The notes below the pieces were generated by a model. It was not told where the DNA came from. It was given only the letters and a program-made list of their open reading frames with translations, and made no database searches. Position numbers and translations under genes: made by a program. Positions 1-64,000 of a stretch of 64,000 nucleotides of DNA are shown in pieces. Source of the stretch: Clavelina lepadiformis (lineage: Eukaryota; Chordata; Ascidiacea; Aplousobranchia; Clavelinidae); contig NC_135243.1 of assembly GCF_947623445.1 (NCBI RefSeq), positions 684,501 through 748,500 of the forward strand, read 5' to 3'. The stretch's first letter is position 1. Each line of letters opens with the position of its first letter.

Positions 1-2270
1 CATAGATATCTTGTATATCACAATGATAGATTATAAATCACATCTCGACAAGGTCCCGAGCCAGACTATATGGCAAGAGACTACACCCAAGATTTTTTTC
101 TAAAATGGCATTGCACACCAGGGCAAACCAATGTCTAAAAAAAAGGAGGCACTAACTTATGCTCCAATTTTTATACGCTTAAAAATTACTGTTTAAAACC
201 AGTTGATATCTCAAAACAAAAGCAAACGGGAAACACTGATTTTTTTCCAAATTTTTATTGTTAGGGCCGCACCTTCCGTACACAAACGCCGGGCAGCCTT
301 GAGCCACGAGTCGCACTGCACACCATGATTTTGTTCTAACACCTGAGATCTCGGCGAAAACTACCATACTCTGTAATCAGAGTCTCGAGCTTGAATAAAA
401 TGCTTCTAACGCTATTTAGTTCCCATTGTACCCTACCAAGTGCAATTGTGGAATCAGTTAACTTTGTCCGTTAAAGGTTTATGCCAGCTGCTAAAAAACT
501 GTATTTTTGTGCCAACACAACACTAACATTACATGAAAATATTTCAATTTAAAAACGTACCGACTGACCAACTTAAAACTAGGTAGCCTACATATGCATG
601 CCTAAGTCAAAAATTGACATGAACCAAAATCCGCCGGAGAAAAAACTGCGTTTAATTTGCAGCGTGGATATTGCTTGAAAAGGGCCTAGGCTAGATTCTA
701 GATAGCCTGGTGGCAAAACAACAAGTATAGGCATATCCGCACATTTCATTTTCGCTTTTAACTACTTTAAAGTGTAAGCAGAACAGAGCTGCGACCATCA
801 TAGCACTCACTGGCTCTGTCGTTCTATAAAACAACAATCAATTGCAGGCTTTAAAGGTCTGCGTTCCTGCCAATGTTGTTTATTTTTTTCAACCTCGAAG
901 CAATTCAACCAGATCGCGCTTTTAAATCAATCCGCTACGTGGGCAAGAAGACGTGCTATTTATTTACTTATTTGTTGTTTCTAAGATGTCGATGAAGCAA
1001 AACTACAATAGTTGTTTTCAACATTAGTTTTTCATTTCTTAAATAAAACTCGTTTGCTTATTTTTCGCCATTGATTTTGGGAAACAAAACGAATGGTATT
1101 AGACAAAATGCACACACGTTATTTGCCCTCGGGACATTGCTTCAGCTCTCTCGTTCATTGATTTTTATATAGTGTCAAACTTTTTATTTTTGATGATTTA
1201 CTGTGCAGTAACCCGTATGTAGTAGCCTACTGGTAAACAAACTAAAAAAAGCCCAAAGGCTTAAAAGGTGTAACATGAAAGGCCTTGAAACGTACGTGGT
1301 GCTATCAAGTTGATAGCTTAGCACGATCCATCAAACCTTGACCATTATTCTGCTTCATTGCACTGATAAAAGGTTAGCACCATGCAGATAGCAAGTAATC
1401 AACCGAACCAAAGTTAGTAAATATAAAGTAAAGCTACATTATTTTTAAGGTTGTCTAATAGAGGTAGTTATAAAGAGCGTAGTTTTTTATTGTATGTCGT
1501 TTGTTAGTGATCGCCGACAGATTTGTAGTAGTTAGACCGCTTAACTCAAAATGAAGTGGCTTGGTTTGAGAAATATAAAGTAACCAAAGTCTCGTAAAAA
1601 AGTCACACCACGTTTAGATCTACCCATGAACATTCTGATGTTTCGAACCCTTTAGTTTTTTATATTAACCTCTCTACGTTATTTCAACTTATCTGAAGTT
1701 GATATTGTAATAGCGTTTACTGAAAAGTCGTAAAAGCCAATTTTAACTAGTTGAGTGCAAACAATTCTTGAATTTTTTGCTCTAAAATACTATCTGTATT
1801 TCATAAATCGACAAGACTCATTGAATTACCCAATTAAAAACAAAACGACAGTTATGACAAACATGACTCTAAAAACTCGATAAATATTCCTTGTTATTAC
1901 CGAATTTTTAATACATGGATTATTTGTTAAAACTTGTTGCTTTTTTGATCACAAAATCAGAAATTGTTAAATTTCACCCTCCCTTTACCAAAATTGGTAA
2001 TTGAAAAAATGTTTTCACACGTGACAAAACAACAAATTTCCGACTTTTTTATTACGTCACGCCCATATTCACTCTTACTAACGATGTATTTTTGTTTTGA
2101 ATATAAAAAACTGACAAATTTTAACTGACGTTTTTATGAATCGTTGTGAAATAGTAAGACTTGCTTCTGATCGGGAAATTGTCAACAAACGCTTTGTGAG
2201 ATCAGAGCGTCCTGGTTAATTTAGTTCGCTAAGTACAAAGGCTAGTACAAAGAAGTGCCAACGTAAAAGC
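1..2270. other. Gene-free stretch upstream of vinculin
   Basis: No protein-coding exon, RNA gene or clear transposon was recognised here. The DNA is AT-rich with short poly-A and poly-T runs. The last 200 bases should hold the vinculin promoter and 5' untranslated region, because the vinculin reading frame opens at 2271 without a visible upstream coding exon. Confidence 0.5.
2051..2110 (+). promoter_or_regulatory. Possible vinculin core promoter (CRE-like site and TATA-like box)
   Basis: A CRE-like TTACGTCACG lies near 2052-2061 and a TATA-like TATAAAAAA at 2102-2110, about 160 bp before the vinculin ATG. Spacing fits a start site near 2130-2140. Both motifs are common in AT-rich DNA, so this is only a suggestion. 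Confidence 0.25.
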
Positions 2271-5200
2271 ATGCCTGTCTTTCACACTAAAACTATTGAA
2301 CAGATTTTAGAGCCCGTTGCTCAGCAGGTTTCGCATTTGGTTATTCTACACGAAGCTGGCGAGGATGGCGCGTCTATGCCATCGTTGGAAGCGTTTATTG
2401 GCGGTGTCAAGGCTGCTGTGACAAACTTGGCCACTGTTGGCCGACAACAAGCCAGCACCACTAAAGATGAAGTTCTTCGCATGGACACACCTCCAGCTAT
2501 TGAGAAGGTGGAAAAAGCCTCCGACCACCTGGTGGCTGCATCTAGTGAACTTACTAATGATCCTTATTCGAAGGCAGGCCGGGAGAAATTGATTTCAGGT
2601 GCCCGTGGCATCTTGCAGGGTGTGTCTGACCTGCTGTTGGTGTTTGATGAAGCGGAAGTCCGTAGAATTTGTCATGTCTGTCAGAATGTTAGAGACTACT
2701 TAAAGGTGTCAGAGGTTGTGCAAGGAATGGAAGATTTGGTGACTTATGTCAAGAATTTGACGCCCGGCATGACCAACATGTCCAGGATGGTGATGGCTAG
2801 GTCAAGTGACCTCACAAATGCAAATCATGCTGATAAGCTGACGACAGAGATAAATGGTCTGAAATCTCGTCTTCCAAACCTCATCTCGAGCATGAAGGCT
2901 TTCGTTACAACCGTCAATGAAGGCGGCAAAGGCAAAGATGCGGCGGACGCAAATCGTCAGTTTTACGTAAAAAATATTTCAAACAGCATCACTGAAATCA
3001 TCCGCTTGCTGCAGCTGGTTTCCACCGACCAAGAAATTGAATTGGACCAGAAGAATCTCCTTCAGCTTCATCAAATCCGTGACAACATCGCCAAAAACTT
3101 GCATTCTGCTCGGCAGTGGCTGAACGACCCTAATGCTGAAGTCGGCGATGATGGGGACATTGCCCTCTATAAAACACTAGATGATGCCAGAGTGATTGCC
3201 AATGAAGCTGGGCCGCTGATGGGACAGAAGATCAACCAAAAATGTGATGAAATTGGAAAAATGGCAGAGAAGTTGCGTGAATTGAGGAGGCAAGGCAAAG
3301 GCAATACTGCTGAGGCTCGTCAACTGCAGCAACAAATCCAGCATGCTTTGGATGGTTTGGTACGAGACGTAGATGCGGCATTGAAGGGCATCGATGCTTT
3401 AACTGAAGCCTGCAACACCATTGCTTCAAAAACTGCCACTGCTAAAGAATGGCTGGCTGACCCTTCTGCCAAACCAGGTCCTGGAACTGGTTCCGAAGCC
3501 ATTCGGGACATTACAGCTGCGACAAGGAATGTCGCAACTATTCTTGACACTCATCCCAACGGTGCACAAACGGCTCGGGAGCTACGTGACTTGTGCGACG
3601 AGATCGATGAAATGATGGAAAAGGTCAACGACTATCGCAACAAAGGTCAAGGACACCTCCCAGAAGCTCGACAACTTGCAAAACAGGTTGCACAGAAGAT
3701 AGTCCAGTTGAATAACAAGGTTGCCAAGGCTTTGCCCAAAGGAGGCACTCCACAGACCTTGGAAGCAAAACTAGATGATATAAGCAAGTGGCTTGAAGAC
3801 CCATCCGTGAATGATGGTGGTCAGGGCATCATGGCGGCTCGGAGTGTGATTGCTGATGCCAGGAGTCTCGCTGGAGAAACAAAAGATAAAGATCTGAGGA
3901 AGAAACTGCTTCAGTCCGCATCGGAATGTGAGAAGCTTTGCAATGAGCTCGATGATCTGCAGAGAAGAGGTCTTGGAGATTCGCCACGAGCAAAAGAGGT
4001 TGCAAAGCAGTTGCAGGAAAAGTTTGAGGAGATGAAAGATCTTATGAAGGATGTTTTAGCGCAAGTAGTGGCTGATGAGTTTTCTGATACCACAACAGTT
4101 CTCAAACAACTCTCTAAAGCTGCTCTCACTGCTAAAAATGTGCCAAATCGTGAAGAAAATTTTGATCAGAAGGCGTTGGAATTGAACCGGCAAGCCCACA
4201 AGCTGGCCAGGTTGGGTGAGCAAGCAGTCGCCAGCAGCTCACTTGGAGCCGAAGAGAAACTGGAAGCGGTTAAAGCAGCATCGAAGAAAATGACCGATCT
4301 TACACCGGAAGTTATCAATGCTGGAAGAATTGTGCTGGAGCATCCGGAGAACAAGATGGCTCAAGAACACTTCCAAACTCTCAAGGATGAGTGGACAGAG
4401 AACATGAATGATCTTACTGAGATGGTTGACAACTCAACTGATGTTGCCAAGTTCATAAAGGCATCGGAGGATGGAATTCGGCGTGATCACGAGAAATGTG
4501 TGTCGTCGATGAAAGCGGACAAGCCACTTGATGTTCTGCCAGCTGCTGGAAATATCGCAAGACGTGCGCACAGAATTGTTGTGGCAGGAATGCGTGAAGC
4601 AAAAAACACAGATGATCAGCAGTATGTTGATGATCTTGAGAGAAAGTTGAACAACCTTCAAGCGACCATAGCACCAGTTACCGAGGCAACAAAAGTGTAT
4701 GCTCAAAATCCGAAGTCACAAGCAGCACAGTCCAACGTCGAGCAAAAGAACGAAAATTTGATGAATGCTGTGACTCAGGTTCGAAAGACTGTAGAGGCCA
4801 AAGTTGTTGAGGAGAAAATGAGGAAGATGCAACTCCAGAAGGAGGAGGAGGCTCCTCCTGTTCCACCTCTGCCATCAGATCCTGCTGCACCACCACGACC
4901 ACCTCTTCCGGAAGAGGAGGAGTTCCCTGAGGAGGATGAAGAAATGAATGAACCCATGTTGGAGGCTGCTCGAGAGCTCCACGAGGAAGCAAAGAAGTGG
5001 GAGAGTAAAGGTAATGACATCATTGCAGCTGCAAAGAAAATGGCTCTGCTCATGGCCAAGATGTCTCGTTTGGTGAAGAACGAAGGAGGAAAGAAGAGTG
5101 ATCTTATTGCTTGTGCAAAGGAGATTGCGAAGGCGTCCAAAGATGTAACAAAGCTGGCGGGGGAGGTTGCAGATAAGTGCACGGATAAACGAATCCGCAA

Positions 5201-5462
5201 CGACATGAAAAAGACTTTGGATAGGATCCCCACCATCAGCACTCAGCTCCGTATCCTGTCTACAGTGAAAGCCGCGTCTCTTGGAGATAGCACTGACATG
5301 ACTAAAGAGGAAGAAGAGGCGGCGGAACAGGCAACCGAGATGTTGGTCCACAACGCTCAGAACCTGATGATGAGTGTGAAAGACACGGTGAAGTATGCTG
5401 AAGCGGCATCGATCCGCATCCGTACGGACACCGGTATCACGATGAGATGGGTTCGAAAATAG
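2271..5462 (+). CDS. VCL: Vinculin, intronless
   Basis: Full-length vinculin of 1063 residues in one uninterrupted reading frame. Vinculin links integrin and cadherin adhesions to F-actin by binding talin or alpha-catenin with its head and actin with its tail. The start MPVFHTKTIEQILEP matches the family N-terminus. Helical-bundle head domains run to about residue 855, with repeats such as RSRLPNL/ARQWLNDP-type segments. A proline-rich linker (PPVPPLPSDPAAPPRPPLP, about 862-880) is followed by acidic residues and a five-helix tail ending in IRIRTDTGITMRWVRK. Length is close to the roughly 1066 residues of vertebrate vinculin. Two oddities stand out: no introns, while the vertebrate gene has many, and the protein stops at WVRK, without the short TPWYQ-type C-terminal arm of vertebrate vinculin. 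The first ATG is used because it alone gives the conserved N-terminus. Identification is near certain. Confidence 0.97.
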   Translation: MPVFHTKTIEQILEPVAQQVSHLVILHEAGEDGASMPSLEAFIGGVKAAVTNLATVGRQQASTTKDEVLRMDTPPAIEKVEKASDHLVAASSELTNDPYSKAGREKLISGARGILQGVSDLLLVFDEAEVRRICHVCQNVRDYLKVSEVVQGMEDLVTYVKNLTPGMTNMSRMVMARSSDLTNANHADKLTTEINGLKSRLPNLISSMKAFVTTVNEGGKGKDAADANRQFYVKNISNSITEIIRLLQLVSTDQEIELDQKNLLQLHQIRDNIAKNLHSARQWLNDPNAEVGDDGDIALYKTLDDARVIANEAGPLMGQKINQKCDEIGKMAEKLRELRRQGKGNTAEARQLQQQIQHALDGLVRDVDAALKGIDALTEACNTIASKTATAKEWLADPSAKPGPGTGSEAIRDITAATRNVATILDTHPNGAQTARELRDLCDEIDEMMEKVNDYRNKGQGHLPEARQLAKQVAQKIVQLNNKVAKALPKGGTPQTLEAKLDDISKWLEDPSVNDGGQGIMAARSVIADARSLAGETKDKDLRKKLLQSASECEKLCNELDDLQRRGLGDSPRAKEVAKQLQEKFEEMKDLMKDVLAQVVADEFSDTTTVLKQLSKAALTAKNVPNREENFDQKALELNRQAHKLARLGEQAVASSSLGAEEKLEAVKAASKKMTDLTPEVINAGRIVLEHPENKMAQEHFQTLKDEWTENMNDLTEMVDNSTDVAKFIKASEDGIRRDHEKCVSSMKADKPLDVLPAAGNIARRAHRIVVAGMREAKNTDDQQYVDDLERKLNNLQATIAPVTEATKVYAQNPKSQAAQSNVEQKNENLMNAVTQVRKTVEAKVVEEKMRKMQLQKEEEAPPVPPLPSDPAAPPRPPLPEEEEFPEEDEEMNEPMLEAARELHEEAKKWESKGNDIIAAAKKMALLMAKMSRLVKNEGGKKSDLIACAKEIAKASKDVTKLAGEVADKCTDKRIRNDMKKTLDRIPTISTQLRILSTVKAASLGDSTDMTKEEEEAAEQATEMLVHNAQNLMMSVKDTVKYAEAASIRIRTDTGITMRWVRK

Positions 5463-6653
5463 GAGAACATGTCATGAAAGCGCATATCCAGCTGCAAGAT
5501 AACCGTCGCTGCCACTATATAGCCAGTGTATTGCTTATATTTATATACATGTTATCACGCACGTGTTGCTATTATTCAATCTAGTACATTTTGATATGAT
5601 GCAAAGCACCTTTAATTACTTTGCCAGAGTGTTCTTCTGATACGATAGCAAGGTACTTTGTTTGCAACAACGACCATTGGTGCTGAGAGCACAGGTTGAC
5701 TTTGCACTTGCACATACACAATGAGTAATTAATTACCCCTGTAAGAGTGGTCTGTTAACTTTTTAGTGGGAAAATTCACGTAAAGTTCCACAGTTGTTGG
5801 TTCAAATTTTTTGTCGCTTGTATTGTGATGTCAAAATAGCTTTGTTAATACTTATTCAAGATGCCAACCGCAGTGATTAGTTTCTGTAATAGTGTTAGTG
5901 AATTAAAGCACATTGTTTTACGAGTGATATGAGTCTAACGGAACAGATGTGTAATATGCTATGTTCATGTGAAATCACAACTCTTTAATGTGATGTCGTT
6001 GTTGACAAAAATTGATGTGATGGTTTATTTTAATTTGAAATTATTCATGATCTTCATGCTACAGTGTTGTGAAATTGTCGGCTGTAAATGTTGTTTTTTT
6101 AATTGTGATCAAATTTATCATAATCAGGTTTATTTGAAACGTATCTAGAATATTTTGATTGAAAATCGAAGTAATTTGTCATTTGGGTACGTTGTATTAC
6201 GGAGCAAATCCTGTAGCTTTTGCCACACCAAGACCGAATGTATTTCTTGGCTACCACCATCTCCCAGTTATTCCACCACAGATATTATGCTGCTGTTTTG
6301 TGGCAAATCTACTTCATAGGCCGGGGTATAGAACGACTTTTTCATTGTTTTGTGCTCATAACAACGGATGTTCTTAACATGATTTGAGGGATGTGATGTA
6401 AATTTTATGAGATGAATGTCAAACATTTATCTTAACAGAAATTGTTTATAATATTCCTACTACTGTCGGTTTTTGTGCTCATGCTCTTTTATATCGATGT
6501 GCTGTTGTATCATGCGCACTAATATTGGTGTATATTATGCTCTGTTAATCCATATGTGTCAAGTGCCTAGACTAGCATTGCAAAAACTAAACTTAATCAA
6601 TTCGCTGCCACCTAAACATTCTGCTTTATTAGGTTTGTTAATGAGTTGTTAAG
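5463..6653. other. Vinculin 3' UTR and intergenic DNA
   Basis: AT-rich and without a supported coding exon. It should hold the vinculin 3' untranslated region and the UBALD promoter. An ATTAAA near 5904 could be a weak polyadenylation signal; no AATAAA close to the stop was seen. Confidence 0.45.
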
Positions 6654-17284: not shown

Positions 17285-18348
17285 GGTTCCACGACATATG
17301 GCCGCGGGAAAATGACCGCGAACAAACTCACCGGGGACAACTGAACGTGACGTAAATTGACCGCAAACAAACTGACTGTGATGTAAATTGACCGCGAACA
17401 AACTAACCGGGAACAGACTTACCGGAATGAAAATTGACCGGGAGGTAAATTGACCGTGCAAGTGCTGAATTATTGTGTTTAAGTTGATGGTAGTATATGA
17501 TATGTAAATATTTGTTTGTAACTATTTCCTTTGTTTTTAACAAAAATTTTTTTTATTTCAATACACATTGAAACATTTATTGAAATTAACAGAAATATTT
17601 CCGGAAATACGAGAAACAACATTAAAAGACGTTCACTGCAAAACACATATGACACTACATAATAAGGGCACTAAAATTTACACAAACTGTTATTTGACAA
17701 ATAAGGAAGTTTATTGCGCAAATTGTAGGTTGTGGGCGATGCCTCTGAGAAAATCTAATATGTCACGGTTTGCAAAATCTTCAACGATGGTTTGAAGTCG
17801 CGCATCCAGATCCTTGTATTTTCTCCTTTTGACAGGAGGCCCTTGGGCACAGAGCGCCTCAATCATGTTTTTGTTTATGTTCTGCAATTTCCTCAAAGCT
17901 TCTATAAATTTCCAAATGGTTGGGTGTTGCATTGATAACATCCTGTTTATTAGATTGTGGTGACCTTCAACTTTGTTGTTGGTTCTGGCTTCGCCATTTA
18001 ACACCCGAACATGGACGTTCCAGAAGTCATGTGAATATGGCGGGTCTCTTCGGAGCTGAGTTCGAAAGCGACGCCCGATGTAAGTACGCTCAAAGTAGTC
18101 GAGAAGCGGAAGCATTTCATCAGGCACAACTTCCTCTAATGTTTCAAAAGCATGAATTAGAATTTTGACCTTTTGACGGCCAATTTGTCGCCGGTTAATT
18201 TGATCGCCGGCCAATTTATCGACGGTTAATTTTATCGCCGGCCAGTTTACGTCACGGTTAATTTGATCGCCGGCCAATTTGTTGCCGGTCAGTTGTCCAC
18301 TACCAGTTGTCGCCGGTGAGTTTGTTCACGGCCATATGTCGTGATCCC
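17285..18348 (-). mobile_element. Mutator-like (MULE) DNA transposon, internally deleted
   Basis: Terminal inverted repeats GGTTCCACGACATATGGCCG on the left and the complement of CGGCCATATGTCGTGATCCC on the right. A perfect 9-bp target duplication CCTCTACCT flanks it at 17276-17284 and 18349-18357, the length typical of MULEs. Next to each end are tandem, degenerate units of the type GTAAATTGACCGCGAACAAA and GATCGCCGGCCAATTT. The interior keeps only the end of a transposase gene (17711 to about 18180). The exact duplication suggests fairly recent insertion. Confidence 0.88.
17711..18277 (-). pseudogene. MULE transposase, C-terminal fragment
   Basis: The open frame is 188 codons, but the first 35 or so are translated subterminal repeat units, not protein. 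The rest resembles the part of MULE transposases after the catalytic core: PPYSHDFWNVHVRVLNGEAR, then RTNNKVEGHHNLINRM, then a Lys/Arg-rich segment and a tail LRGIAHNLQ. The FLYWCH finger and most of the catalytic domain are absent, so it cannot work as a transposase by itself. A related tail (LRAIAHNL) ends the ORF at 62525-63028. Confidence 0.8.
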
Positions 18349-18863: not shown

Positions 18864-21800
18864 TCATCTCTGTGCCTGAAGCGAGGTAAACAATCCAACA
18901 TAGACCTTGGGCCTCTGAAAAGTAAATAAGTTGTAAAAATAACGAGGATAAATGCGAGTTTAATTTAAGCAGATTCCTTTCTATGGAAACATTACAGCGC
19001 TGTTATTGGGGTTCATGATGAGCCTTAAATGTGCTACGACCGTGCATTTGCAGGGTCACATCATCTTATTTCCAGTTAGCATTCTGTTTTCGCCTCATCT
19101 ACGCCACTGACAAAGAACAAACAAAATGACGCGATTGAAAAGAAATCGCAAACAATCACTTGTTTGCGTTGATGACGTATGCAAGCACGTGATACTCACA
19201 GAAGTTGTGAGCTTGTTGAGAGCTCGCTGGAGCTTTTCTCTCTCCTCCTGGTTCGCGCATCTCCGTCCTCCGCGATCATCCGAGAAGCAGGCATACAACA
19301 ACAGCTTGTCCTTGATCACGGGCAGCAAGGAGATGATCTGGTCGATTGAGTTTGACGTCAGGTCGTTAAAGCCGATGTTCAGCTTTCGGATCTGTCAATC
19401 ATCGTCATAATTATAATAAAAGAGACGTCACGGGGTTTGACGTCATTATTACTTGCACCACGCGTATTGTCATGGCAATCGAGGTGATGAAAATGGCAAA
19501 CTATAACCATGAGTGACGTGGTACAGATCAAACCAATGATTAATTGATTGAAAGCGAGCAGTGAGGCACGTGACAAAGCTAAGATGTTAATGTTTTGGTA
19601 AATTTCGTCCCATAGTTGTTCAACAATTTGATTTTCAACAATTTTAAACAGAGACATGGGTGTTGTTGGCGCCTTTGCCCGACACCTGGTATTTTCAATT
19701 CTCTTTCACCTCACCGCAATGTCAACAATCGACATCATATTTCTACCTGTGTCTTTCTCATCTTCTTTAATGTCAAGGCGATGATGTTGAAAGACTGATG
19801 CTGGATTCCGCACTCGAACAAGTCCAGGATCTCGACCTGCTTCTCCACATTCTTCAAGACATAGCAAAGAGCTGATATCTGGTCGATGTCGAGGGTCACG
19901 CGCGACAAGTCGAGTCTTGTCGGGAAATATTCAGCCGCACCTAGCAGCTCATGCGACTTCCAAATATGGACATAGATGTCCAACAACTTGGTCCGGTTAT
20001 CTGATGCGAAAAAGACATCTTATAGCTAAATATGAAAAGTAAAACTTTGCAACATTCAATAAATCCCCATTTATTTCTAGTTGACTTTTATTGATAATAA
20101 GAATGCACAAGACTTGAACTGTTTAAACTTTGCAAAGATCAGAATTCTTTCTAATTCTACATCTGTTTGACATATTCAAATATCTACAATGAGGACCTCG
20201 ATCAATTTCATCTGCAAATGTTCTCAGATGGTCACTGATGTTGTCTTCGTTGAAATCTAATTCTTCTTTCTTGGCGACCTCTACAAGAATAAGAGCAGTG
20301 GCATAATTTTCTAAATTCACAAGAATTTGTGAATTATTATTGGGGCAAAATACTGGGTGTAGCAAATCATTTGTAAAATGACATAGAAGTGCCAAAGCAC
20401 GAATTAAAATGAATAAAATGTTTTCTACTATTTTGGTTCTGGTATATATTCATTTTATGATTTTTGGTTGGAATTCCCAATTCTTAGCATAGATTAAATA
20501 CATTATATATATACATATAGCTCCTCCACCTCCTCCGTCGGTGTCCAGCAAGCCCTGGTTCTTTGACCACGTCGCCCATCGACCCTCTTCTTGCGATGTC
20601 TTTGTCTCAAAAACAACATCTTCTTCTTCTTCAACATCCTTCTTGTTCGTGGACAACGCTGCAAAATTGTCGCTTCTGATGTTTTCGACTCCCGGTGTGG
20701 AAGCTGAAAGAAAAAGTTATTGTGATGTAATAAACAAGGCCACGAGTTGAAATAATAAACCAATCACAACTCACCTATGCTGTCAAGTAGATCCTTGAAG
20801 TTGTCATCGAACGAACCGAAGCTGAAGTCGTGGTAGAACTGGCCTGCAGTGATGAGACCTGCAGGAACAGTTCGAAGGTCATAGAAGATTTGAAGCTGAC
20901 ACCACAAAGCGTTACATAAGGTATGCATTTCACTTGACGCTTTACACGAGCAACATTGTCTTATGCTATATGCAGGTCAAAGGTCACTGGCCAAAGCCTC
21001 TCAAACCTGAACTAGTGGAGTATTTTTGAACGATGCTTAGAAGGTTTTATGTCATAGCTCATGGTTCTTGAGTTATGAATGTGTGAAACAACTTATAGCC
21101 CAGAACAATATTTGCGAAGGAAACAGAGAACAATTGGAGTCTGCCTGTCGTGTTTCTTATTGCGTTACATAACAAGGCTTGTAGCTGTCATTTGCAAGGA
21201 AACAAAATATCTCAAAACTAAAATAATTTCTACAAACCATGACATCACATTGTCAACAACACTATAATTCAACAAACCAAGGACTTTTAACACAATAAAT
21301 TTATCTTTGTTATGTGCTGAGTGCTGACAAAAAGTTCAAGTTACATGTCTTAGGAATTAGGCATTGAGACCATGTTCTACTATGGGATATTCATACTTAT
21401 GATTAATCATTGTGACCATCTGGGATGGCATAATTTTTACATCAAGGAGATGTGGCGACCCAATTATCATGATATTCTTATTATAGAAATGACAGCGGCG
21501 GAAAATTTGTTCTTATAATGCAGTTCATGATAATGTTGCACAATGACAAAAATAAAGGCGACCATCTGACAGTAGAAGTGATTAGGTGGGTCAAAGAGGT
21601 TCTTTGGTCCGTGACGCAAAGGTTGAGAGGAACAATAAAGTTATGTTTAAGAATTATAAAACTGTGCATAAGAGAACTAACTATAGAGTTTAGACGTTGT
21701 TGGCTATGGAACAAAAAATAACTAAATTCTAGTTTGCGTGACTAAATAACTAATTAATCTAATTTAAGCAATGAAAATCCAAGAAGCACGCAACTCACGC

Positions 21801-24800
21801 AGCCAACTGCTGGGTTTGTGGTCCTGCTGCACCCGAATAGGGATGATGCGTTTGTGAAGGTCGGCAGCTAGTGACGCCTCGCGCTGTGCGTGCTCGCTCG
21901 TCTCATAATGCGGAGAGACAAATATAAGAACAATGATGGCGTTCTCCACACCTTCGGCCATCTTCTCGTAGATGTTGCCTTTCATCTGACCCTTGTCGAT
22001 CCACACGTTGTACCCGGCCGTGGTCAGTCTGTCGCATATCTGTGCCAAGATGGACGGTTAAATTGGCAACCACTTTCATTTTGTTCAAGTCGCCATGAAA
22101 TATACTCAAGGTTCAGGTTAAGAAAACAAACACTACGCAGGGTTGCAGGAAAAATGTTTATTTACATTCAAACTGACTTCATTGTTTTAAACATGTTCCT
22201 GTGTGTCTTCTGAGTATAATGACTTGGAATAGACTTAGTTTTAAAATGGAACTACGGTACAGGCAAGTTTATGGTGAGCAAATGTTGTAAGAAAATAAAG
22301 TTACGATTACCGTACTGGCTAACTCTAACTAAGTTGGCACTTAAATGAAATTACGTTGTGCATGACGACGAAAACAGAAACAACAGAACCTATGGAAAAG
22401 GAGCCAGCTGTAGATCTCTGAGCATTGTTTGGACTAGACATGAACCAGGTATGTGGTTGAGTGTAAATCTTTACATAGAAAGAGAAGCCATTTTCTCCTG
22501 TCTGTTTTCGCAGCCAAAGGTTTGGTTGTTTGATAACGGATTCATGCACTTTGAACTCGCTCGAAGGATGCATGCTTAGGCGAGAGTTCCTACACAGAGT
22601 ACCATATATGCCGGCGTATAGGAAAACTTTTGAGTGCGGTGGGCTTTTACGTCAAGTATATGTTTCCTAAAAAATTTCGTTCTGACCGCATGACTGACTG
22701 ACTAACTCGCATTCTTCTGGTAAATAAAGAAAGCATCGAAATAGTTCTTAATAGCGGTTACGGTATTGCGCTTTCATCTTTTCGCATTAGCACACTTGGC
22801 CTTCGTGGTCGTGATCCTTTGCGTGTAAACCAGATAATGTGAATCTTTATTAAAGTGAACAAATGCATAAATCAGTTCAAATTTGTTTAACAGAGTAATA
22901 AAAAAATTTATCGATGTTGTAAGTAAACGGCCAAACAGGCAATTTTGTAGGAAACTGTGCTGCAATTGACAGTGATTGTAAGTCATAAGACGTCTTTTGT
23001 TCAAAAACACAATGCATTGCTGTGAGCGTTGCGACTTCTAGCGAGAATCACAGACAAAGACTTCATCGTGCGAAGTGCAGTTATTCTATTGTAGGAAAAG
23101 GCCAAAACGTGGCATGGGCTTATACGGCGAGCATAGGTTAAAAGTAATATTCTGGAACCAAAAGCTGGTGGTGGGCCTATACGCCAGCATATACGGTGCT
23201 TTAAAATCAATGTTTACGCCACATGGAATAGTAAACTACATGCCATTAAACCAAAAAAATGTGGAATTTCCACCACTAAAAGTACATCTTCGAATGCCTA
23301 ATTTATAATGTACACTGCCACACTGGCAATTTTTTAATTTTAGAATGATTAAGCCAGTAAAATCAACAAAAGCCGCTTTAGCAAAAAATTTAATCCAAGC
23401 ACTTAAGAGCTGTAGCGCTTCTTTTTGTTCTAAATTTTACAACTGATTCAGGAATGTTGCCTAATTCCAGCTCCACACAATCTACGTCAATTATATTTGA
23501 TATATATATACCAATGTTTTTGTTCATGCAGTTCATTGTTTCCTGTATGTGTTGTATAAACTGGCAAATATATTCTTATGAATATATATTGCTTATTATG
23601 ATTTACTACCAGAATCGTGTTTCTTCTGTTGTTTGTTCAAACTCTTTTTCTTCGATCAAAAATGAAGCAAAACACCAACACTGATAAACCCATATGTCTG
23701 AATGAAATACCTTCCTTGCCACATCAATGGAATCATCCCAGTTATAACTTATCATGATGTGCTGCTGCTTTTTCTCCACGTTTTCACCGACCGCTTCCTA
23801 AAAACAAAGCGAAGTTAGTGTTTTAACGGTGATGTTGTGTCGATGTTGGATGCAAACTTCTAAGATTGTTCCAGCGTAATTATACTTGGTCAAGCATTTC
23901 TACTAAAATTTAGCAACGTAATCATGCAAGTAACCATTCATGAATGCCATGTTGGAAGACAACCTGAGATCTTTATAGCAGCGAAATTATACTTCTGAGA
24001 ATATGGAAACTACAAGAAAACAATTACGCTCTCAGAATAAATTTATTCATAAACCTGCTTATTACTTTCTACATGATGATTATGATGTCATCATCCACTA
24101 GGTGTTTCTCCTTTTGTTGGTCTGTTGCATTTGTGCAATTACTCTGCAACTGAAATTACTTAAAATGATTACTGAAAAGAAATTTTATAACTTCGTCAAA
24201 TTAATACCCTCGATAAATCATGCTATTTGTAATAAAAATTCAATAAGCACATGCAATGTAATGGTGCAGACAATCGATAAAAAGAAAATTACAATCATTT
24301 ATAACATTAACCAGCAATTTCATAACGTAATGATTTTCATACAGGTCACTTTCACACATTCAATGTTCTTTGATGATATTCCTGATGATGACCTTGATTA
24401 TTATTCTCACTTATTGATATTTTACGCTATAGTAGACAGATTAATTATAACATAAAGATAATCAAATTGTATTTTAACGACGACGTTTGATAACCAGCAG
24501 CAATTAAATGCTCGTGACATTAGAATTCTTCACCACTGTTTCATGCCTGTCACAAAACTCAGTTTGATTTCTTATCCAGTAATTTTCAGTGTAAATGGAA
24601 AAACCGAAAAACTGCAGCACATATGAAATTTGTTTAAATCTAGTAATTTCTCTACAAATCTTGGTACCTACTTTAAATGATAATTTAATTATATCACTGT
24701 ATAGATTGTTGCAAGGTTGGCATCACATTTAAGGCATCTACTTTTACTCTTTTACTTTTTTTACTTTACTTATGAAAATATCTGGGGTGGTGAGGGGGGG

Positions 24801-25629
24801 GGGGGGCAAAGCGTTAGCAACTTGGGTTTAAATTAAATTCTTTATAAACTGTCAATTTACATGGCACATGCATGAGTTAAACGAAACAGGTTGGTTTATG
24901 CCCTAACTGTTTCCAGTTCATTGCATAAGCCAGGAACATACTTGCATTGACCATATTACGTTGTCTCATACTCTCAATCATAACATGATAAAGTTCTGGC
25001 ATCTTTTGCCTATTTATGTTTCATGCCTATTTTTCTTGACTCAAGATGTTCAGTGATTGCTAAGCATGTCCAATTTTGTCATAGAAATTGAAAAGGTTTT
25101 ATGAAACAAACTTCCAGCTAAAAAGCGTTGCAAAATGTTAAAGTGACAAATCTTGATCTCTTTAGACAATTGTTAAATCATTGTATTTATGAGACAAGGC
25201 TGAAAAATAATTCCTGCTTAAAAGTGTCATCTATAAATAACTTTAGCTTCATTGATTCATTTGTTTAATTGTCGGGTCTAGTATACACGTGCACAATCAG
25301 ATGACATCACAATTTGAGTAGCTGGGGTCTAGTATACAAAGGTGTCCTTTGGTTGCTTGTATACTAGACCCTAATTTTCACCATAAATGCCGTAAAAGAC
25401 AAAAAAATTTGACAACAATAATGATTACAAAGACATTGACAACAATTGCAATGCACTACAGCTAAGGCAAGAAAACGTGGCAACACGTTGCGAACAAAAT
25501 TGTTTAAACATGCATTACAGTAATTAATACCAATCTGAATTTAAACTAGAATAAACCTTAAAACTGTAACAAACGCTGGCAATGTAAGTCTAGTAAAATT
25601 GGGATAATACAAACCTCAGAAACCTCCAT
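18864..25629 (-). CDS. TIR-domain and leucine-rich-repeat protein
   Basis: Nine exons, all GT/AG and in phase: 25629-25615, 23797-23711, 22039-21799, 20858-20775, 20703-20530, 20310 to about 20161, 20000-19747, 19391-19200, 18914-18864, giving about 415 residues. Residues 18-142 form a TIR domain: HIMISYNWDDS (strand A, box 1), GYNVWIDKGQM (strand B and BB loop), VLIFVSPHY (strand D), REASLAADLHKRIIPI (helix and strand E), then FYHDFSFGSF. Glu88 in REASLA aligns with the catalytic glutamate of SARM1-type TIR NADases. Residues 143-200 are an acidic linker. The last exons look like ribonuclease-inhibitor-type repeats: VEILDLFECGIQHQSF, IRKLNIGFNDLTSNSID. No NACHT or NB-ARC motif is present. The donor of exon 6 is ambiguous (20161 or 20197 both keep phase); reading on instead stops at 20123 and would give a TIR protein without repeats. 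Role inferred: innate immune or cell-death signalling. Confidence 0.75.
24794..24806. repeat. Poly-G tract in intron 1 of the TIR-LRR gene
   Basis: Thirteen consecutive G on the plus strand (poly-C in the transcript). Likely a replication-slippage tract; on the minus strand transcript it cannot form a G-quadruplex, though the plus-strand DNA could. Confidence 0.7.
25275..25372. repeat. Dispersed repeat with GGGTCTAGTATAC hairpin, intact copy
   Basis: GGGTCTAGTATAC occurs at about 25275 and 25325 in direct orientation and as its exact complement GTATACTAGACCC at 25359-25371, so 25325-25371 can fold into a 13-bp stem with a 21-nt loop. CACAATTTGAGTAGCTGG precedes the stem. It lies in intron 1 of the TIR-LRR gene. 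Confidence 0.6.
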
Positions 25630-34262: not shown

Positions 34263-36164
34263 ATGTGGCTGTTCACGAAATGGATTGTCTTCGTCATCTT
34301 CATTCTGTCTGCCACTGTCACTACAATGTACTACTACAGCACTGAAGTTTTGAAAAACACCCGTGCAACAAAGTTTAAGTAAGTTAAAATAAGGAAAATA
34401 TTGGACCAAACAGCAGAACAGCAAACAGCAACAGAACAGAACAGAACAGCAAACAGCAAAACAAAGCGAATATTTTGCAAACCACGTTGAACTGTTGTGA
34501 TATTGCAGTTTTGAAAAGGAATAAACAAAAGTTTATTATAAGTTTATGCTTTTGATTCAGGTCCTTGCGGAGAATATCAAGCAGCAAAAAGCAACTGACC
34601 AATCCCGGTGCAAACACGTCAAGGTAAGACTTGAGTTCCATTGAATTGTATGAATATTTTGTTGAGATCAACACTGACTTAAGCTAACAAAAATACCTCT
34701 AAAGATTTCTGCCCAATGCTCATGGCAACAGGACCTACATATTGTTTTGGGATCATCCATGGTCTGTGCCGACTGAAGGATTCTCAGAAGGCAACATGGG
34801 AGGTTGCACGGGAACTTACGACCGAAGCAAACTTCCCGAGGCCGGGGCGGTTGTCTTCCACTACTCAAACCTGGATAGAGAATCCATGCCTTGGAAGCAC
34901 TACAGGTGGACAAGAAATATCACAACACATGACTGACACTGGATAATGTCAAACAAAGATGAAGTTGAAATCTGAAACAATTTCCATCTTTATGACGTCA
35001 TTTTGATATCAGTGTTTTTCGCATCACAGAGATCCGGAGCAAATATTTGTCTTCTCCTCTCACGAAAGTCCATCCTACGTCATCCACGGGGAGCATCGAC
35101 ACGCAATGACTAAATTTGACAACCACTTCATCAACTGGACCATGACTTACCGGACAGATTCCGACGTGTTCGCTCCCTACCAGGAATCCAAGGTCATAAA
35201 CAAAATAATAGACGAAGGAGGGAAATGGATAGATAGTAAACTGGCAAAGAAAAAGAAAGTTGCGGTAACTAACCCTAACCTAAGCTTTCCAATGTAATTT
35301 GTAACCACGCATGTATTTGTCATTATCTCACATGATTTTTAAACTGCCATGGGTTGCATGCGTTCTTCTGATGAAATTGCTCCGTAGAAAACTTTGCCAT
35401 AGTATATGAAACAATTCAACTGACTAAATCAGAATGTTGCATTCGACGCGCATCTGTCGCTTGCAAAGAAAATAAAAGCTAATCTTCCAACCCATCACAT
35501 GACGTCTTTAGTTTTATTAATATATATTCCAGTTGTGTCAACTTTCAATTTCTTCAACATTTTCATTTCTTTGCAGCTGTGGGTTGTAAGCAACTGCGCT
35601 TTATTGCGCGGCAGCAAAATGCGGATGAAATATACTGACGCCCTGGTTGAAGCTGGCCTGCCCGTGGATCGCTTTGGAGGATGCTTCAACAACAAAGATG
35701 AGTTCAAGCAGCTTTCTGCTGATGATTTGGACGCCTACAAATTTTACCTGGCATTTGAAAATGCCCAATACTGCAAGGATTACATGACGGAGAAATTTTG
35801 GCGCAATTCCATCGGTGCGGGAAGAGTTCCAGTGGTGTGGGGACCATCAAAGGAAGATGTTCAAAAACGTGCTCCTACCGGTTCCTTCATACACACCGAC
35901 GACTTCAAGAGTCCAGCAGATCTTGCAAAGTATCTGCTCTACCTGGACTCGAACGACACAGCATACAGGGAGTATTTTAAGTGGGTTGAAAACCCAGATG
36001 AAATGACTTTGGAGCTTGCAAAAACTTACGAGCTAACTGGTCCACATCGTCTTTGCAAGATGATGCTTTCTAATCGCGAGAGAAAATCTCATCCGTCCGT
36101 GAGTGATTTTTTCCACAACGAAAAAACAAACTGCTTTTCCTCACATGAAGATGCTATCAAGTGA
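34263..36164 (+). CDS. Alpha-1,3-fucosyltransferase-like enzyme (GT10)
   Basis: Five exons, 34263-34378, 34561-34623, 34705-34905, 35030-35264 and 35577-36164, in phase with GT/AG borders, encode 400 residues. It is a type II Golgi membrane protein: a short cytosolic start MWLFTK, then a hydrophobic anchor (WIVFVIFILSATVTTMYYY), then a stem. The catalytic part has the GT10 signatures ILFWDHPWSVP, NHFINWTMTYRTDSDVF, VALWVVSNC, YKFYLAFENAQYCKDYMTEK and AGRVPVVWG followed by SFIHTDDF. Such enzymes move fucose from GDP-fucose to N-acetylglucosamine or related acceptors on glycans. Length fits the family (about 360-420). The exact linkage cannot be told from sequence. The first ATG supplies the membrane anchor, which supports it as start. 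Invertebrate chordates often have several such genes. Confidence 0.92.
34423..34462 (+). repeat. CAGAA/CAGCAAA microsatellite in FUT intron 1
   Basis: Short tandem units of CAGAACAG and CAGCAAACAG in the first intron of the fucosyltransferase gene. Confidence 0.7.
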
Positions 36165-41472: not shown

Positions 41473-42620
41473 GTATAGTTGTTTAGTTGAGTGCAGACTG
41501 CAACTCCAGGCAGCAAAATTAAAGTTGCTCCTGTCGATTAAACGCGGTCTTATCTGCCCATAATTCGAAAAGCTTGAAGTACTCTTGAAAACCTTTATTT
41601 TCAATAGTTGCTACAGAATGACGACTTGAAGTTAAACCCGGCGATGATTTCTCATCGCTCGATCCCCCGTTACCGAGCTATCATTTGTGCAAGTTCCGAT
41701 TGTCACATGTTTTTTATTTATTTATTTTTTGATTTCTTACGTAGTATTTCCAAAATTTAGAACTGTCCTTCAGGTCCACTGAACAGGAGCAAGTGTCGTT
41801 ACTATATGACAAATTTTAATTCGTTTGTGCACTACTTGTGTGAAGTATTACACAAGAAACTCATCTGTCATAAAGACCGCGTATGCTGGCGGTAATTGTT
41901 AGAATGTGAGCGAGGACGATAATTGGTTGATAACTTGTTTTACTTCTGCTTCGATGGATGAGTTCTCATTTCTCAAACGGCGTGACTATGCTGTTAGTTG
42001 CTTAAATTCTGTCTATACAAATTACTAAATGATAAAGTTCCCATTTTGTTTATTATAAGACACGAAGGCTTTCACCTTCGGGCAAAGCTTACTGAATGTT
42101 ACATTGCGCTCAGTAACAAGTGAGACGGTAAAAAGGGAAGATCGTAAACATTACAACAGTATATATATGTGACACAACAGTTCAATCGAGGAAATTATCT
42201 GACGTCATTAAGGAGAACTCAAATCTGGTTAACAACTGAATTACAAGATCTCAAAATATAATTCATGCATTTTGAAAAACAACTCGTTATTCGTGACGTA
42301 ACCGTCACAACTACCTTACCCAAGGGCATTACTACAATGGTAAAGTGCCCTCACGTGTTTTGTTGCAAACTGTTATGTATAATCGTACAGCAGTGGTTTT
42401 CAAACTTATAACTCAGTGCCACAGCACGCTGCCGTGTTGTGATAGTTTTCCAGGTATGCCGTGAATGTTTTCAAAAGTAGCTAATGTCCAAAGTTATGAA
42501 TTAAAACTAATTCTGGTTTTGCAGCTATAATGCAATAGGCTGCATGTTGGACGCTGGAAAGAAGGTTTACTGCATTAAACTAATGCTGAATAGTGGAATA
42601 ACCAATGTTTTAAATCACAG
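41473..42620. other. Intergenic stretch with repeat copy B, upstream of TRMT10C
   Basis: Holds a short piece of the GTTACCGAGCT repeat (41640-41700), copy B of the 450-bp repeat (41804-42309) and a lone hAT-like end CAGTGGTTTTCAAAC at about 42391. The TRMT10C promoter should lie in the last few hundred bases. Confidence 0.5.
41804..42309 (+). repeat. Dispersed repeat of about 450-500 bp, copy B
   Basis: Same-orientation partner of 16498-16940, with an additional 60-bp segment around 42010-42075 that copy A lacks. Confidence 0.7.
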
Positions 42621-44102
42621 ATGATAAGTCCAAGGAACTTGCTTTGTTGTAAAAGTTATCAGGGATTTGTCGCGTCTTTTCACCTCTCCCGTGGACATGA
42701 TGCTAAACAGCATTTTAATATTTTTGATGTCCGTAGAAAAAAAGGAACTCCAAAGAAAACAGAGAAAATCACTGGAGAAGGCGTTGATCTTCTTGATCAG
42801 GCTCAAGGAGAGATTAGTCCAGAAAAGCGCGATTTAGCACGGGACATCAATAAAATTGTACAAGCGATGACAAGGCCACGCATGCATACTGAAAATTTAA
42901 ACTTGAAGCCTAAGCCGTTGATAGACACATGCAAGATAACTTCTCCCCTGGCAAAGTTGTTTATTGACCCCCCGGATGACCCTTTAGACATTTTTGATCA
43001 TGAAATTGAATCCTGGGGTGACGAAAAGGTCCAAGAAATGAAGAGACTCTACGCCTACCAATTCTGTCTGGAGAATGAACAACCATACAAGTATGAGCTT
43101 CCTGAAGATGTCGACCAATCAAATTTCCTAACTGATCCTGACCTCAGGCGGAAATTCCTCCCTGAGTCCGAACCATTTAACGCAAAACTTATGCGCTTTT
43201 ACATGTTAAAGTGCGCATTAAAAAATCAGAAAAAGAGAAAGACGGCAACCAAGAAAAGGGAGAGAGGTGAGGTAGAAGACGACGGGCCAACGTATGGAGA
43301 AAACTTTCCAAACGTTATCTTACCCCGGTTTGGAAAGGGAGCTATCAGTCACGTTTACTCGGAGAGAATGCAATCTGCTAAGAAGTTCAATCAACCCCTG
43401 GTGGTTGACATGCGTTTTCACACAAAATGGAATCGCGAGGGTACGTCACTCTACTCTCAACTTCGTATGATGCTCGGCGAGAACCGCGTCAGTCGTTTTC
43501 CTTTCCATATGGTCCTGTGCAACTATGATGAGGAGAGTCCTCTGGCTCAAGAAATGCGGATTGACGCAAATTCGATGTTGTTCAACACCTGTACAACTAC
43601 GAACAAGTCTTATTTAGAGATGCAGCCGTTGATCGATAGAGAGTCGTTGGTCTATCTGTCACCGAATGCGCACCGGACAATGACGGAATTCTCCCACAAC
43701 AAGATTTACATATTTGGAGGATTGATCGATTTGAAGGCACAGACCAACCTTTCAAAGACAATTTGTGAAACGGAGAATATTCGCTGCGAGAAATTCCCCC
43801 TTGGCCAGTACCTTGACTGGGGCGGGGTTGGTGGGAAGCAGGAACTGACGGTAGACGTTTGCATGAGGGTATTACTTGCATTGAAAGCAGGTGGCAATTG
43901 GGTGGATGCTTTTCGTCATATCCCGTATCGATTGCACCGAGGACTTACAGAGATGGGTAAAGATCTTGCCAAGCAAGACCCAAACACTATCGAATACTTT
44001 GATCGAGGTCGACATTGGCTCGAGTCACTTAATCGTGAGAAAAGTAGCCCGGCCACAGACACAGCGTTTGTCAGGTTCCAAAAATTTTTAGATGCCAACT
44101 GA
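42621..44102 (+). CDS. TRMT10C: TRMT10C/MRPP1, mitochondrial RNase P subunit 1 (tRNA m1R9 methyltransferase)
   Basis: A 493-residue protein in one coding exon. TRMT10C methylates N1 of purine 9 in mitochondrial tRNAs together with HSD17B10, and with PRORP forms protein-only mitochondrial RNase P. The first 35 residues (MISPRNLLCCKSYQGFVASF) suit a mitochondrial targeting peptide. A charged helical region follows, with SPLAKLFIDPPDDPLDIFD. A SPOUT/TRM10 domain covers about 235-480: RMQSAKKFNQPLVVDMRFHT, then HRTMTEFSHNKIYIFGGLID (YIFGG at 363-367, the knot region), FPLGQYLDWG and LALKAGGNWVDAFRHIPYR. Length and ending agree with the vertebrate protein. Human TRMT10C also has its coding sequence in one exon. 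An acceptor-like AAATCACAG ends directly at the ATG. The C-terminal gap to CFAP418 is 342 bp. Confidence 0.93.
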   Translation: MISPRNLLCCKSYQGFVASFHLSRGHDAKQHFNIFDVRRKKGTPKKTEKITGEGVDLLDQAQGEISPEKRDLARDINKIVQAMTRPRMHTENLNLKPKPLIDTCKITSPLAKLFIDPPDDPLDIFDHEIESWGDEKVQEMKRLYAYQFCLENEQPYKYELPEDVDQSNFLTDPDLRRKFLPESEPFNAKLMRFYMLKCALKNQKKRKTATKKRERGEVEDDGPTYGENFPNVILPRFGKGAISHVYSERMQSAKKFNQPLVVDMRFHTKWNREGTSLYSQLRMMLGENRVSRFPFHMVLCNYDEESPLAQEMRIDANSMLFNTCTTTNKSYLEMQPLIDRESLVYLSPNAHRTMTEFSHNKIYIFGGLIDLKAQTNLSKTICETENIRCEKFPLGQYLDWGGVGGKQELTVDVCMRVLLALKAGGNWVDAFRHIPYRLHRGLTEMGKDLAKQDPNTIEYFDRGRHWLESLNREKSSPATDTAFVRFQKFLDAN

Positions 44103-62524: not shown

Positions 62525-63028
62525 TTACAAGTTGTGTGCAATTGCTCGAAGATAACTTTTTATGTCCATATTCGTTGAGTCATAATTTTCGACTATGCTC
62601 TTCAGCCGTTGGTTGACAGCGTCGTAGCGCTTCTTCCGAGTTGGGCCATCGATTCCAGCACTCAATTGCTCAATTAACATTTCGTTGGAACTTTGTTCCC
62701 GCTTAATTTTTTTGACGAGTCTGCGAAGCGTCGGATGGGATATTGAGACACGCTTGCTGAACGCATTGGTACGTTCATCTGAATTGACTGCTCGATCTCG
62801 CATGCTGGCTTGTGCTCTTGCAACTATAACACGTGCAGGGTTTGGTGGATGACTGTGCTCAGATGGTGCTCTCTTGAGGCTGTCGTCCTCGGCTGTGGAT
62901 AGACGGCTTTTACATTTGAGGTATTTCTCACATCTCCAGTAAGTTACGCCATTTGTTGTTTTGTCACGAACGTACATGAAACTGTGGGGATCATGATAGA
63001 ATTGGCAATTAGTTATATAAATTGGCAT
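62525..63028 (-). CDS. FLYWCH-finger ORF derived from a MULE, catalytic core deleted
   Basis: An intact 167-residue frame. Residues 1-65 form a FLYWCH zinc finger (FYHDPHSFMYVRDKT, TYWRCEKYLKCKSRL, then HSHPPNP), the DNA-binding start of many MULE transposases. From about residue 95 it continues with sequence matching the end of MULE transposases: VSISHPTLRRLVKKIKREQS, RKKRYDAVNQRLKSIVENY and LRAIAHNL. The same end is seen at 17711-17830. The DDE/D domain that should lie between is missing but the frame stays open. Either this is an internally deleted transposon or a small DNA-binding protein made from one. Element ends were not fixed. Confidence 0.7.
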   Translation of the reverse strand: MPIYITNCQFYHDPHSFMYVRDKTTNGVTYWRCEKYLKCKSRLSTAEDDSLKRAPSEHSHPPNPARVIVARAQASMRDRAVNSDERTNAFSKRVSISHPTLRRLVKKIKREQSSNEMLIEQLSAGIDGPTRKKRYDAVNQRLKSIVENYDSTNMDIKSYLRAIAHNL

Positions 63029-64000
63029 TTTGCATAAGTTTTTGCATTTTCTCCAGTTAGATAAAATTGAATACCAAGACAGCTGTGTTACACTTGGTAA
63101 ATTCTGTTATTCAAACAAATTGTATTTCTAACTGACATATTGGACGCAGATATAAGCATTTCAAGTAGCATTGTTTTCACGGCGTAAAGTTTGAGTGTAC
63201 TTGAAAACGTTCAGATAACGTGTAATATATGCGACACGTGGTTTTATGGTAGCAGGTATTGTTCTAGTATCTTTAATCACAATCGTAGTTTCAAACCAAC
63301 ATGTGATGTAGTAAGTGTGTCAAGTGGTTTTCTGTACTGGTGTAAATCGATTTGAATTCTTTGTGATGAAAAGCTTAGAATAACATGGACACATGTACAC
63401 GTGTGATAGCAGTTAATTTGGCACTCGCTCATTGGTCAATATTTTAGTATATAAAACAAGTGTTGGATTTAAATCGCTCTCTTGGAAATTCTCTCTTCTC
63501 TGAGTTATTTCCCTTGTTCTGCTAAATTGAAGTTATTACTGAATTATTATGTAAGTGGGATCATGGTGTAAATATTGCTAATTCGATACAACTTATTCGG
63601 ATAATATAACAACTAAACTTTATGAAGTTGGTGTTGATTTAAGAAGCAATATAGAGACAGTAAACGCAACGGAGTCAAAGACAATCATTAGCGGAGTCAA
63701 ACAGTCAGACTTGGTTTAGGCCAGTCTAGAAACCAATCAATCCACCACCCCAAATCCATAAAACCGTTCAAGGCCAACTTTCGTTTGCCTTTATCACTTG
63801 AAATGAATTCCATTTCGAAATGTATACAATCGTTATTAACGTGGAAAAAATTACAAGAATTCTTAAGATGTCTAAAATCAAATAGTGTGGTAAGGTAAGT
63901 ATACACAATATGATCAAATAATGTAATTATAATAGTTATATAACTCATAAATAAATAATAACATATAAACATAATATAACATGTGTACGTGCTACCAAGC
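63029..64000. other. Right end of the window, no gene recognised
   Basis: AT-rich. A promoter-like arrangement is seen at 63430-63560. No exon of a known family was recognised. Confidence 0.4.
63428..63555 (+). promoter_or_regulatory. Possible promoter and first exon of a gene leaving the window
   Basis: ATTGGTCAAT (inverted CCAAT) at about 63431, TATATAAAAC at about 63450, a pyrimidine-rich stretch from 63475, then a consensus donor ATGTAAGTGG near 63550. Spacing between the elements fits a polymerase II promoter with a short first exon on the plus strand. No protein evidence supports it. Confidence 0.3.

Follow-up and report, generated by a model that had tools for sequence, protein, structure and literature searches.

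Animal TIR domains are best known from membrane receptors and their adaptors. In Toll-like receptors, extracellular leucine-rich repeats (LRRs) are followed by a transmembrane segment and a C-terminal TIR domain, and in plant TIR-NB-LRR (TNL) proteins the TIR domain is N-terminal and the LRR C-terminal. Other arrangements have been described in animals: TIR-NACHT hybrids are reported from amphioxus and said to be absent in vertebrates (PMC2575513), two placozoan proteins of ~3000 amino acids combine TIR with LRRs without a transmembrane segment (PMC6321704), and for novel genes of sea anemones, TIR_2 is described as the usual type (PMC5094078). Here, we analyze a TIR-LRR locus in a 64,000-nucleotide stretch of chromosome 4 (C4) of the ascidian Clavelina lepadiformis (G000:C4:684501-748500, contig NC_135243.1 of the 209.06-Mb, 95-contig assembly GCF_947623445.1), hereinafter the window. 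We read this locus, with a probability of about 0.5, as a single gene whose product would be a soluble TIR-LRR protein derived from an NLR and about 294-392 residues long. In the literature that we searched, mostly open texts, we found no description of tunicate TIR-NACHT, TIR-Kelch or TIR-LRR proteins, which does not imply that they are absent from print.

Results

The gene lies on the minus strand of the window, and its TIR domain, originally proposed in a sequence-only reading of this DNA, is borne out by comparison with Pfam: the joined TIR exons match the TIR_2 model (PF13676) over its full length (positions 1-122 of 122, E=2.8e-24, 86.4 bits against a curated cut-off of 28). Splice sites were evaluated with a simple splice-consensus score in bits, with percentiles relative to such sites on the minus strand. 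TIR exon 1 (23711..23797), which ends in QQHIMISYNWDDSIDVARK, has phases 0-0, an acceptor of 10.5 (>99th percentile) and a donor of 5.8; TIR exon 2 (21799..22039; phases 0-1; acceptor 5.2, 90th-95th percentile) by itself reaches 62.6 bits with PF13676; and TIR exon 3 (20775..20858; phases 1-1) has a donor of 10.9 bits (>99th percentile). The intron phases of the TIR exons (0 / 0-1 / 1) are common to the window gene, a paralog on chromosome 3 (locus L045), a member of the TIR-NACHT array (L009) and a TIR-Kelch gene (L023), and in the latter three loci the donor of TIR exon 1 is identical in place and phase to that in the window. Among 27 searched loci, some of which overlap, TIR exon 1 was matched in all and TIR exon 3 in 21, with no match at E<=0.01 in the other 6.

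Five PDB chains match the TIR domain at E<=1, namely 7uxr (9.5e-5), 3h16 (4e-4), 7uwg, 8g83 and, weakest, the TIR of plant RPS4 (0.97). The first four we take to be bacterial TIR proteins; 8g83 is named NAD(+) hydrolase AbTIR. The glutamate of the motif AQREASLAAD in TIR exon 2 aligns with a glutamate in each of these four chains, presumably the catalytic residue in AbTIR, and is conserved in 29 of 29 matches to TIR exon 2 from fetched loci, a sample of the 77 TIR matches in the genome. The TIR domain of the window carries a glutamate at the putative NADase active-site position, and NAD+ cleavage is predicted.

The two LRR exons are homologous to exons located behind NACHT in Clavelina NLR genes. 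LRR exon 1 (20000-19747, phases 1-0, acceptor 8.1) encodes a leading helical stretch and about two repeats of the ribonuclease inhibitor (RI)/NLR type, and LRR exon 2 (19391-19200, entered in phase 0) encodes a repeat and the C-terminal tail GGRRCANQEEREKLQRALNKLTT, which is common to paralogs; by eye, three to four repeats can be discerned. Together, the LRR exons have 97 matches in the genome, the window itself included; for LRR exon 1 alone there are 54, and in 19 of these cases a NACHT lies upstream at a distance of no more than 6 kb. A single-sequence search with the LRR exons retrieved NLRP14 and ribonuclease inhibitor at 6e-4, and 28 of the 31 matches are named NLR or RNase inhibitor. 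With a profile of seven sequences, the best match was a designed LRR protein (8e-20), followed by RNase inhibitor (1e-13) and NLRP14 (1.4e-13), and 43 of the 52 PDB matches are named NLR or RNase inhibitor; part of the exon also matches NLRP3, outside what we take to be the NLRP3 repeats. The GT at the 3' end of LRR exon 1 lies at an equivalent place in the members on contig C5. LRR exon 2 shows 26-51% identity to six paralog exons and is entered in phase 0 on chromosome 3 as well as in the window, with a donor three bases on at an equivalent place (5.1 in the window, 4.6 on chromosome 3). Judging from these similarities, we read the LRR of the window as the short end of an NLR, not as a free-standing sensor. 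Very similar NLR-type LRR exons were found in two additional loci, L046 (C7:12.63 Mb) and L047 (C6:19.49 Mb), with no TIR or NACHT within the flanks examined.

The sequence-only reading saw neither a NACHT nor a membrane segment in this gene, and both absences held up. A genome search with PF05729 detected no match in the window, against at least 97 genome-wide (97 of 137 candidates scored), and a tblastn search of the whole window with ten queries (nine NACHT-bearing open reading frames, or ORFs, and one winged-helix ORF) gave a best E value of 0.76, that is, no trace of NACHT. The highest hydropathy over 19 residues in the modelled product is 1.47, and no transmembrane segment was found. On the strength of the two NACHT searches, we rejected an NLR with an overlooked NACHT in the window; a Toll-like receptor was rejected because TIR precedes LRR and no transmembrane segment was seen. 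With no NACHT found in the window, the locus was not assigned to the plant-type TNL (TIR-NB-ARC-LRR), nor, for lack of a NACHT or NB-ARC there, to the NLRs proper.

The connection between the two parts follows from the exon phases. TIR exon 3 is followed by an acidic exon (20703-20530; phases 1-1; acceptor 10.5, donor 4.3), for which the sequence-only reading gave a linker of 58 residues; the exon, of 174 nt, is real and by our count encodes 57 residues, including 13 D/E and 6 K/R. Beyond its own copies, it has no homolog in the other fetched loci, although no genome-wide search with this exon was made. Because its phases are 1-1, the acidic exon can be skipped with the frame unchanged. LRR exon 1 is entered in phase 1, which is the exit phase of both TIR exon 3 and the acidic exon, so that TIR-acid-LRR and TIR-LRR are both open; the frame indeed remains open throughout TIR-acid-LRR. 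Furthermore, the ORF of LRR exon 1 contains no ATG ahead of the repeats and hence requires an upstream coding exon, the nearest recognised on this strand being the TIR exons. From the phases and the missing ATG, we consider the TIR-to-LRR splice likely.

Other parts of the gene model are less secure, and the nine-exon join of the sequence-only reading was not confirmed. The putative first coding exon (25615..25629; MEVSE, phase 0 out, an ATG with a donor of 4.3 bits) and the putative last exon (18864..18875; AQR-stop, acceptor 8.4, with a competing acceptor of 11.3 at 18914) are tentative, both being placed by splice consensus alone, the first one without paralog support. The short exon inserted between the acidic exon and LRR exon 1 (20123..20280, acceptor 9.2), perhaps an alternative terminal exon, has an in-frame stop at 20123, and the donors ahead of this stop are poor (0.6 at 20161, the only in-phase one above 0, and -3.1 at 20129). 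Located 3' of the stop (20070..20092) are two AATAAA hexamers, starting at 20092 and 20075, that resemble polyadenylation signals by consensus only. In place of the ~415 residues originally estimated, the modelled lengths are 352 amino acids for TIR-acid-LRR, 294 for TIR-LRR and 392 when the short exon (20280-20161) is included.

The same architecture recurs on chromosome 3. In L045 (C3:24.134-24.141 Mb), LRR exons homologous to those of the window come after a set of three TIR exons, with the order and strand as in the window and without NACHT. LRR exon 1 of this locus lies 594 bp downstream of the main TIR exon, and its acceptor, scored at 10.4, has the same phase as that in the window and is one codon off in the alignment. 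As a separate observation, an ORF in the window (58685-58993, minus strand) resembles an ORF located upstream of the TIR-LRR gene in L045 (positions 5301-5576; 25% identity, pairwise E 1e-7). The window ORF has six matches in the genome, itself included, and neither ORF matches a Pfam family above the cut-off.

In favor of the joined gene, 0.02 TIR-LRR neighbours within 2 kb are expected by chance under uniform placement and the probability of two or more is 2e-4; this figure is rough because both families cluster and such a model is too kind. Several other observations weigh against a single gene with an LRR tail. The TIR tree described below joins the two TIR-LRR genes only weakly (67/69), so that a single origin of both is neither demonstrated nor excluded by this tree. 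Some splice sites are weak, in particular the donor of TIR exon 3 in the chromosome 3 paralog (2.3) and the acceptor of LRR exon 2 in the window (0.9), and the joined protein is itself predicted from genomic sequence rather than from transcripts. The identity of the repeats is also less than clear-cut. The sequence-only call of LRR exons is upheld by the homology to NLRs and RNase inhibitor, but not by the Pfam LRR models, given that LRR_1 remains below the cut-off (11.9-14.9 bits against 20.6). By itself, LRR exon 1 of the window matches no Pfam family at E<=1, and when the seven aligned members were scanned singly, two matched EF-hand_14 (best 0.0012) and two LRR_1 (0.058). A PDB search with the LRR exon 2 profile found no LRR chain, the best match being a proteinase inhibitor at 0.016. 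The AlphaFold prediction for LRR exon 1 by itself consists entirely of helices (predicted local distance difference test score 73), and a fold search with this single-exon model found no LRR fold and no match at E<=0.001; however, one exon taken from a repeat array, modelled from seven sequences, is a poor test.

Also against the joined gene stands the competing terminal exon at 20280-20123, with its good acceptor, stop and AATAAA signals, which is open to two explanations. One is that the locus consists of two units, a TIR-only gene with its end at 20123, followed by an NLR tail that is separate or dead. The acceptor at 20280 is strong and in phase with the acidic exon, and the lack of a good donor in the short exon, combined with the in-frame stop and the two hexamers, makes a TIR-only transcript possible. 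Against this division of the locus are LRR exon 1, which has a family-typical phase-1 acceptor, lacks an ATG of its own and starts only 122 bases from the stop, and the recurrence of the TIR-then-LRR order on chromosome 3; we consider two units unlikely. In that case, the TIR product, of ~250 amino acids and acidic at its C-terminus, would serve as an adaptor or an effector that lacks a sensor. The other explanation is a single gene with alternative 3' ends, yielding a short TIR-acid form that tunes the long TIR-LRR form or the TIR-NACHT proteins. Two phase-compatible acceptors follow the acidic exon (9.2 at 20280 and 8.1 at 20000) with a stop and AATAAA between them, but as these are consensus sites alone, we regard this reading as quite improbable. 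The reading of a single joined TIR-LRR gene remains the one that we prefer.

Beyond this locus, TIR domains are found next to several kinds of partners across the genome. Each of the 77 PF13676 matches was assigned the nearest same-strand downstream partner before the next TIR, within 5 kb for NACHT and 16 kb for Kelch. The partner was NACHT for at least 26 matches (a lower bound because some candidates were unscored), Kelch for 18, a window-type LRR for 2, and none of these for 31; the Kelch test is loose, with 66 of 151 reported matches entered, themselves derived from 150 scored of 751 candidates. Between 0.70 and 3.45 Mb of chromosome 4 there are 29 TIR matches: at least 25 with NACHT, 3 without any of these partners, and the window gene. 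These include a tandem TIR-NACHT array at C4:0.77-3.42 Mb (samples L009-L020), with all copies on one strand, NACHT 1.5-4 kb behind TIR, and many copies close in sequence. At C5 22.4-24.0 Mb, a Kelch partner was assigned to 17 of the 18 TIR matches. Among the 18 TIR-Kelch pairs of the whole genome, some may be due to chance, given the high density of Kelch exons in this stretch of C5 and a spacing within 7 kb in only 9 pairs. In the two loci where the TIR-Kelch ORFs were read, L023 and L026, they lie on the same strand; the best Kelch_1 match is 5e-8, and the remaining ORFs are at or under the cut-off. The apparent TIR-Kelch family occupies C5:22.4-24.0 Mb and C7:9.008 Mb (L021-L023, L026), with loose pairing outside L023 and L026.

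In a maximum-likelihood tree of 30 TIR sequences (that of the window gene plus 29 taken from fetched loci; the repeats L001, L003, L004 and L007 were omitted), the array is set apart with 12 rows, including 2 without a NACHT partner (99/95), and so are the 7 Kelch rows (94/87). The window gene falls outside these two groups, as does L002, a TIR-NACHT gene located on C7. The TIR domain of the window is 67% identical to that of L023 over 119 columns, and its main exon shows 64-70% identity to the close C5 group compared to 50-55% to the array. Origin by simple deletion of NACHT from a member of the adjacent array was accordingly rejected: the window TIR lies outside the array clade and is nearer by identity to the Kelch-associated TIRs. 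The window gene is one variant within a large TIR family, whose phase-1-ended cassette is found ahead of several kinds of partner.

The sequences have evolved under constraint. Nonsynonymous (pN) and synonymous (pS) differences were compared for TIR exon 2 (four comparisons, pN 0.20-0.30, pS 0.89-0.96), TIR exon 3 (one comparison, pN 0.30, pS 0.69) and LRR exons 1 and 2 (six comparisons each, pN 0.32-0.49, pS 0.72-0.90); no ratios are given because synonymous sites are near saturation. By these comparisons, the TIR and LRR proteins were under constraint during much of their history, but a recent loss in this lineage is compatible with the data. The latter bears on the possibility that the window gene is a decoy or a relic that is being lost and has no receptor function. 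It is a single copy beside an array in which NACHT accompanies at least 25 of 28 TIR matches, some of its splice sites are weak, and directly downstream (17714-18325, minus strand) is an ORF that reads like transposase remains, with no Pfam match. Conversely, the TIR and LRR exons of the window contain no stops, pN is well below pS, although a recent loss would leave no such signal, a second locus with open exons exists on chromosome 3, and the position of the window TIR outside the clade of the adjacent array implies that the gene did not arise by simple loss of NACHT from one of its members. We give little credence to a decaying gene.

Other genes in the window, identified by Pfam and all on the plus strand, encode vinculin (2220-5459), a family-10 fucosyltransferase (35424-36161), a tRNA (guanine-1)-methyltransferase-like protein (42594-44099) and an eIF2A-family protein (56923-57228). 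On visual comparison, the end of the ORF at 17714-18325 is similar to another ORF (62528-63106), which contains a FLYWCH zinc finger.

Discussion

The results can be accommodated by a scenario in which a three-exon, phase-1-ended TIR cassette became attached to the terminal exons of an NLR gene (entry phase 1) without an intervening NACHT. Under this scenario, the short LRR tail would dock to a ligand or to a partner NLR and keep the TIR inactive, whereas contact or clustering would allow TIR assembly; the assembled TIRs would then signal, probably via NAD+ cleavage, given that in the alignment the window TIR also has a glutamate where bacterial TIR NADases carry theirs. The protein could, as the sequence-only reading had it, sense and act on its own. 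However, lacking the NACHT motor, it would not by itself form a nucleotide-driven wheel, and we favor action together with the proteins of the TIR-NACHT array, the nearest member of which is 64 kb from the window gene, or with other TIR oligomers. Most likely, such recruitment would occur through an LRR or TIR contact that draws the protein into TIR assemblies, perhaps with its TIR-NACHT neighbours, and the locus may in addition yield a TIR-only transcript that terminates at 20123. Catalysis, partners and the TIR-LRR splice are all inferred in this scheme.

We tentatively go one step further and propose, as a possibility that we do not hold to be probable, that in a chordate a portable, phase-1-ended TIR effector cassette has been placed on at least three sensor ends: a NACHT, a Kelch, and the LRR tail of an NLR by itself. 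On this view, the two TIR-LRR genes (chromosomes 4 and 3) would function inside the cell, either as TIR receptors that do without NACHT or as partners of the TIR-NACHT array, and the whole would represent an animal parallel, built independently, to the TIR immunity of plants and bacteria.

Whatever the fate of this proposal, a single tunicate genome contains a tandem TIR-NACHT array, two TIR-LRR loci and a cluster in which TIR exons are interspersed with Kelch exons, and the TIR exon phases are identical in the members tested, and the larger interest lies in the array and clusters around the window gene. If the proteins are made, they provide a chordate setting for two questions: do TIR enzymes operate immediately downstream of intracellular sensors, as they do in plants and bacteria, and can a TIR-LRR protein without the NACHT motor work alone, or does it need its TIR-NACHT neighbours?

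Comparison with known systems places the window gene among several of them. It shares with Toll-like receptors the presence of TIR and LRR in one gene, but the order is reversed, no transmembrane segment was found, the TIR matches the TIR_2 rather than the TIR model, and the LRR is of the RI/NLR type. The sequence-only view of an unusual layout for an animal is tempered by the placozoan protein ecTIR-DC 14 II, which likewise combines TIR and LRRs without a transmembrane segment (PMC6321704). That protein, as described there, is ~3000 amino acids long and has several other domains, compared to about 294-392 amino acids and an NLR-type LRR in the window product. The amphioxus hybrids are similar in that TIR is fused to an NLR-type part in one animal protein, but they retain NACHT, whereas in the window gene the LRR tail directly follows TIR (PMC2575513). 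The likeness to NLRP-type NLRs and ribonuclease inhibitor comes from the LRR exon 1 profile; the window gene differs in having only three to four repeats discernible by eye, no NACHT, and a TIR in front. The comparison with plant and bacterial proteins drawn by the sequence-only reading has some basis, because the best solved matches of the TIR domain, 7uxr, 3h16, 7uwg and 8g83, are presumably bacterial, one of them is named as an NAD(+) hydrolase, and the glutamate is aligned in all four; these proteins have no LRR, and in the window gene the activity is predicted. With the plant TNL, finally, the window gene shares the N-terminal TIR and the C-terminal LRR but lacks the NB-ARC or NACHT in between, so that the TIR-NACHT array on chromosome 4 is the nearer parallel.

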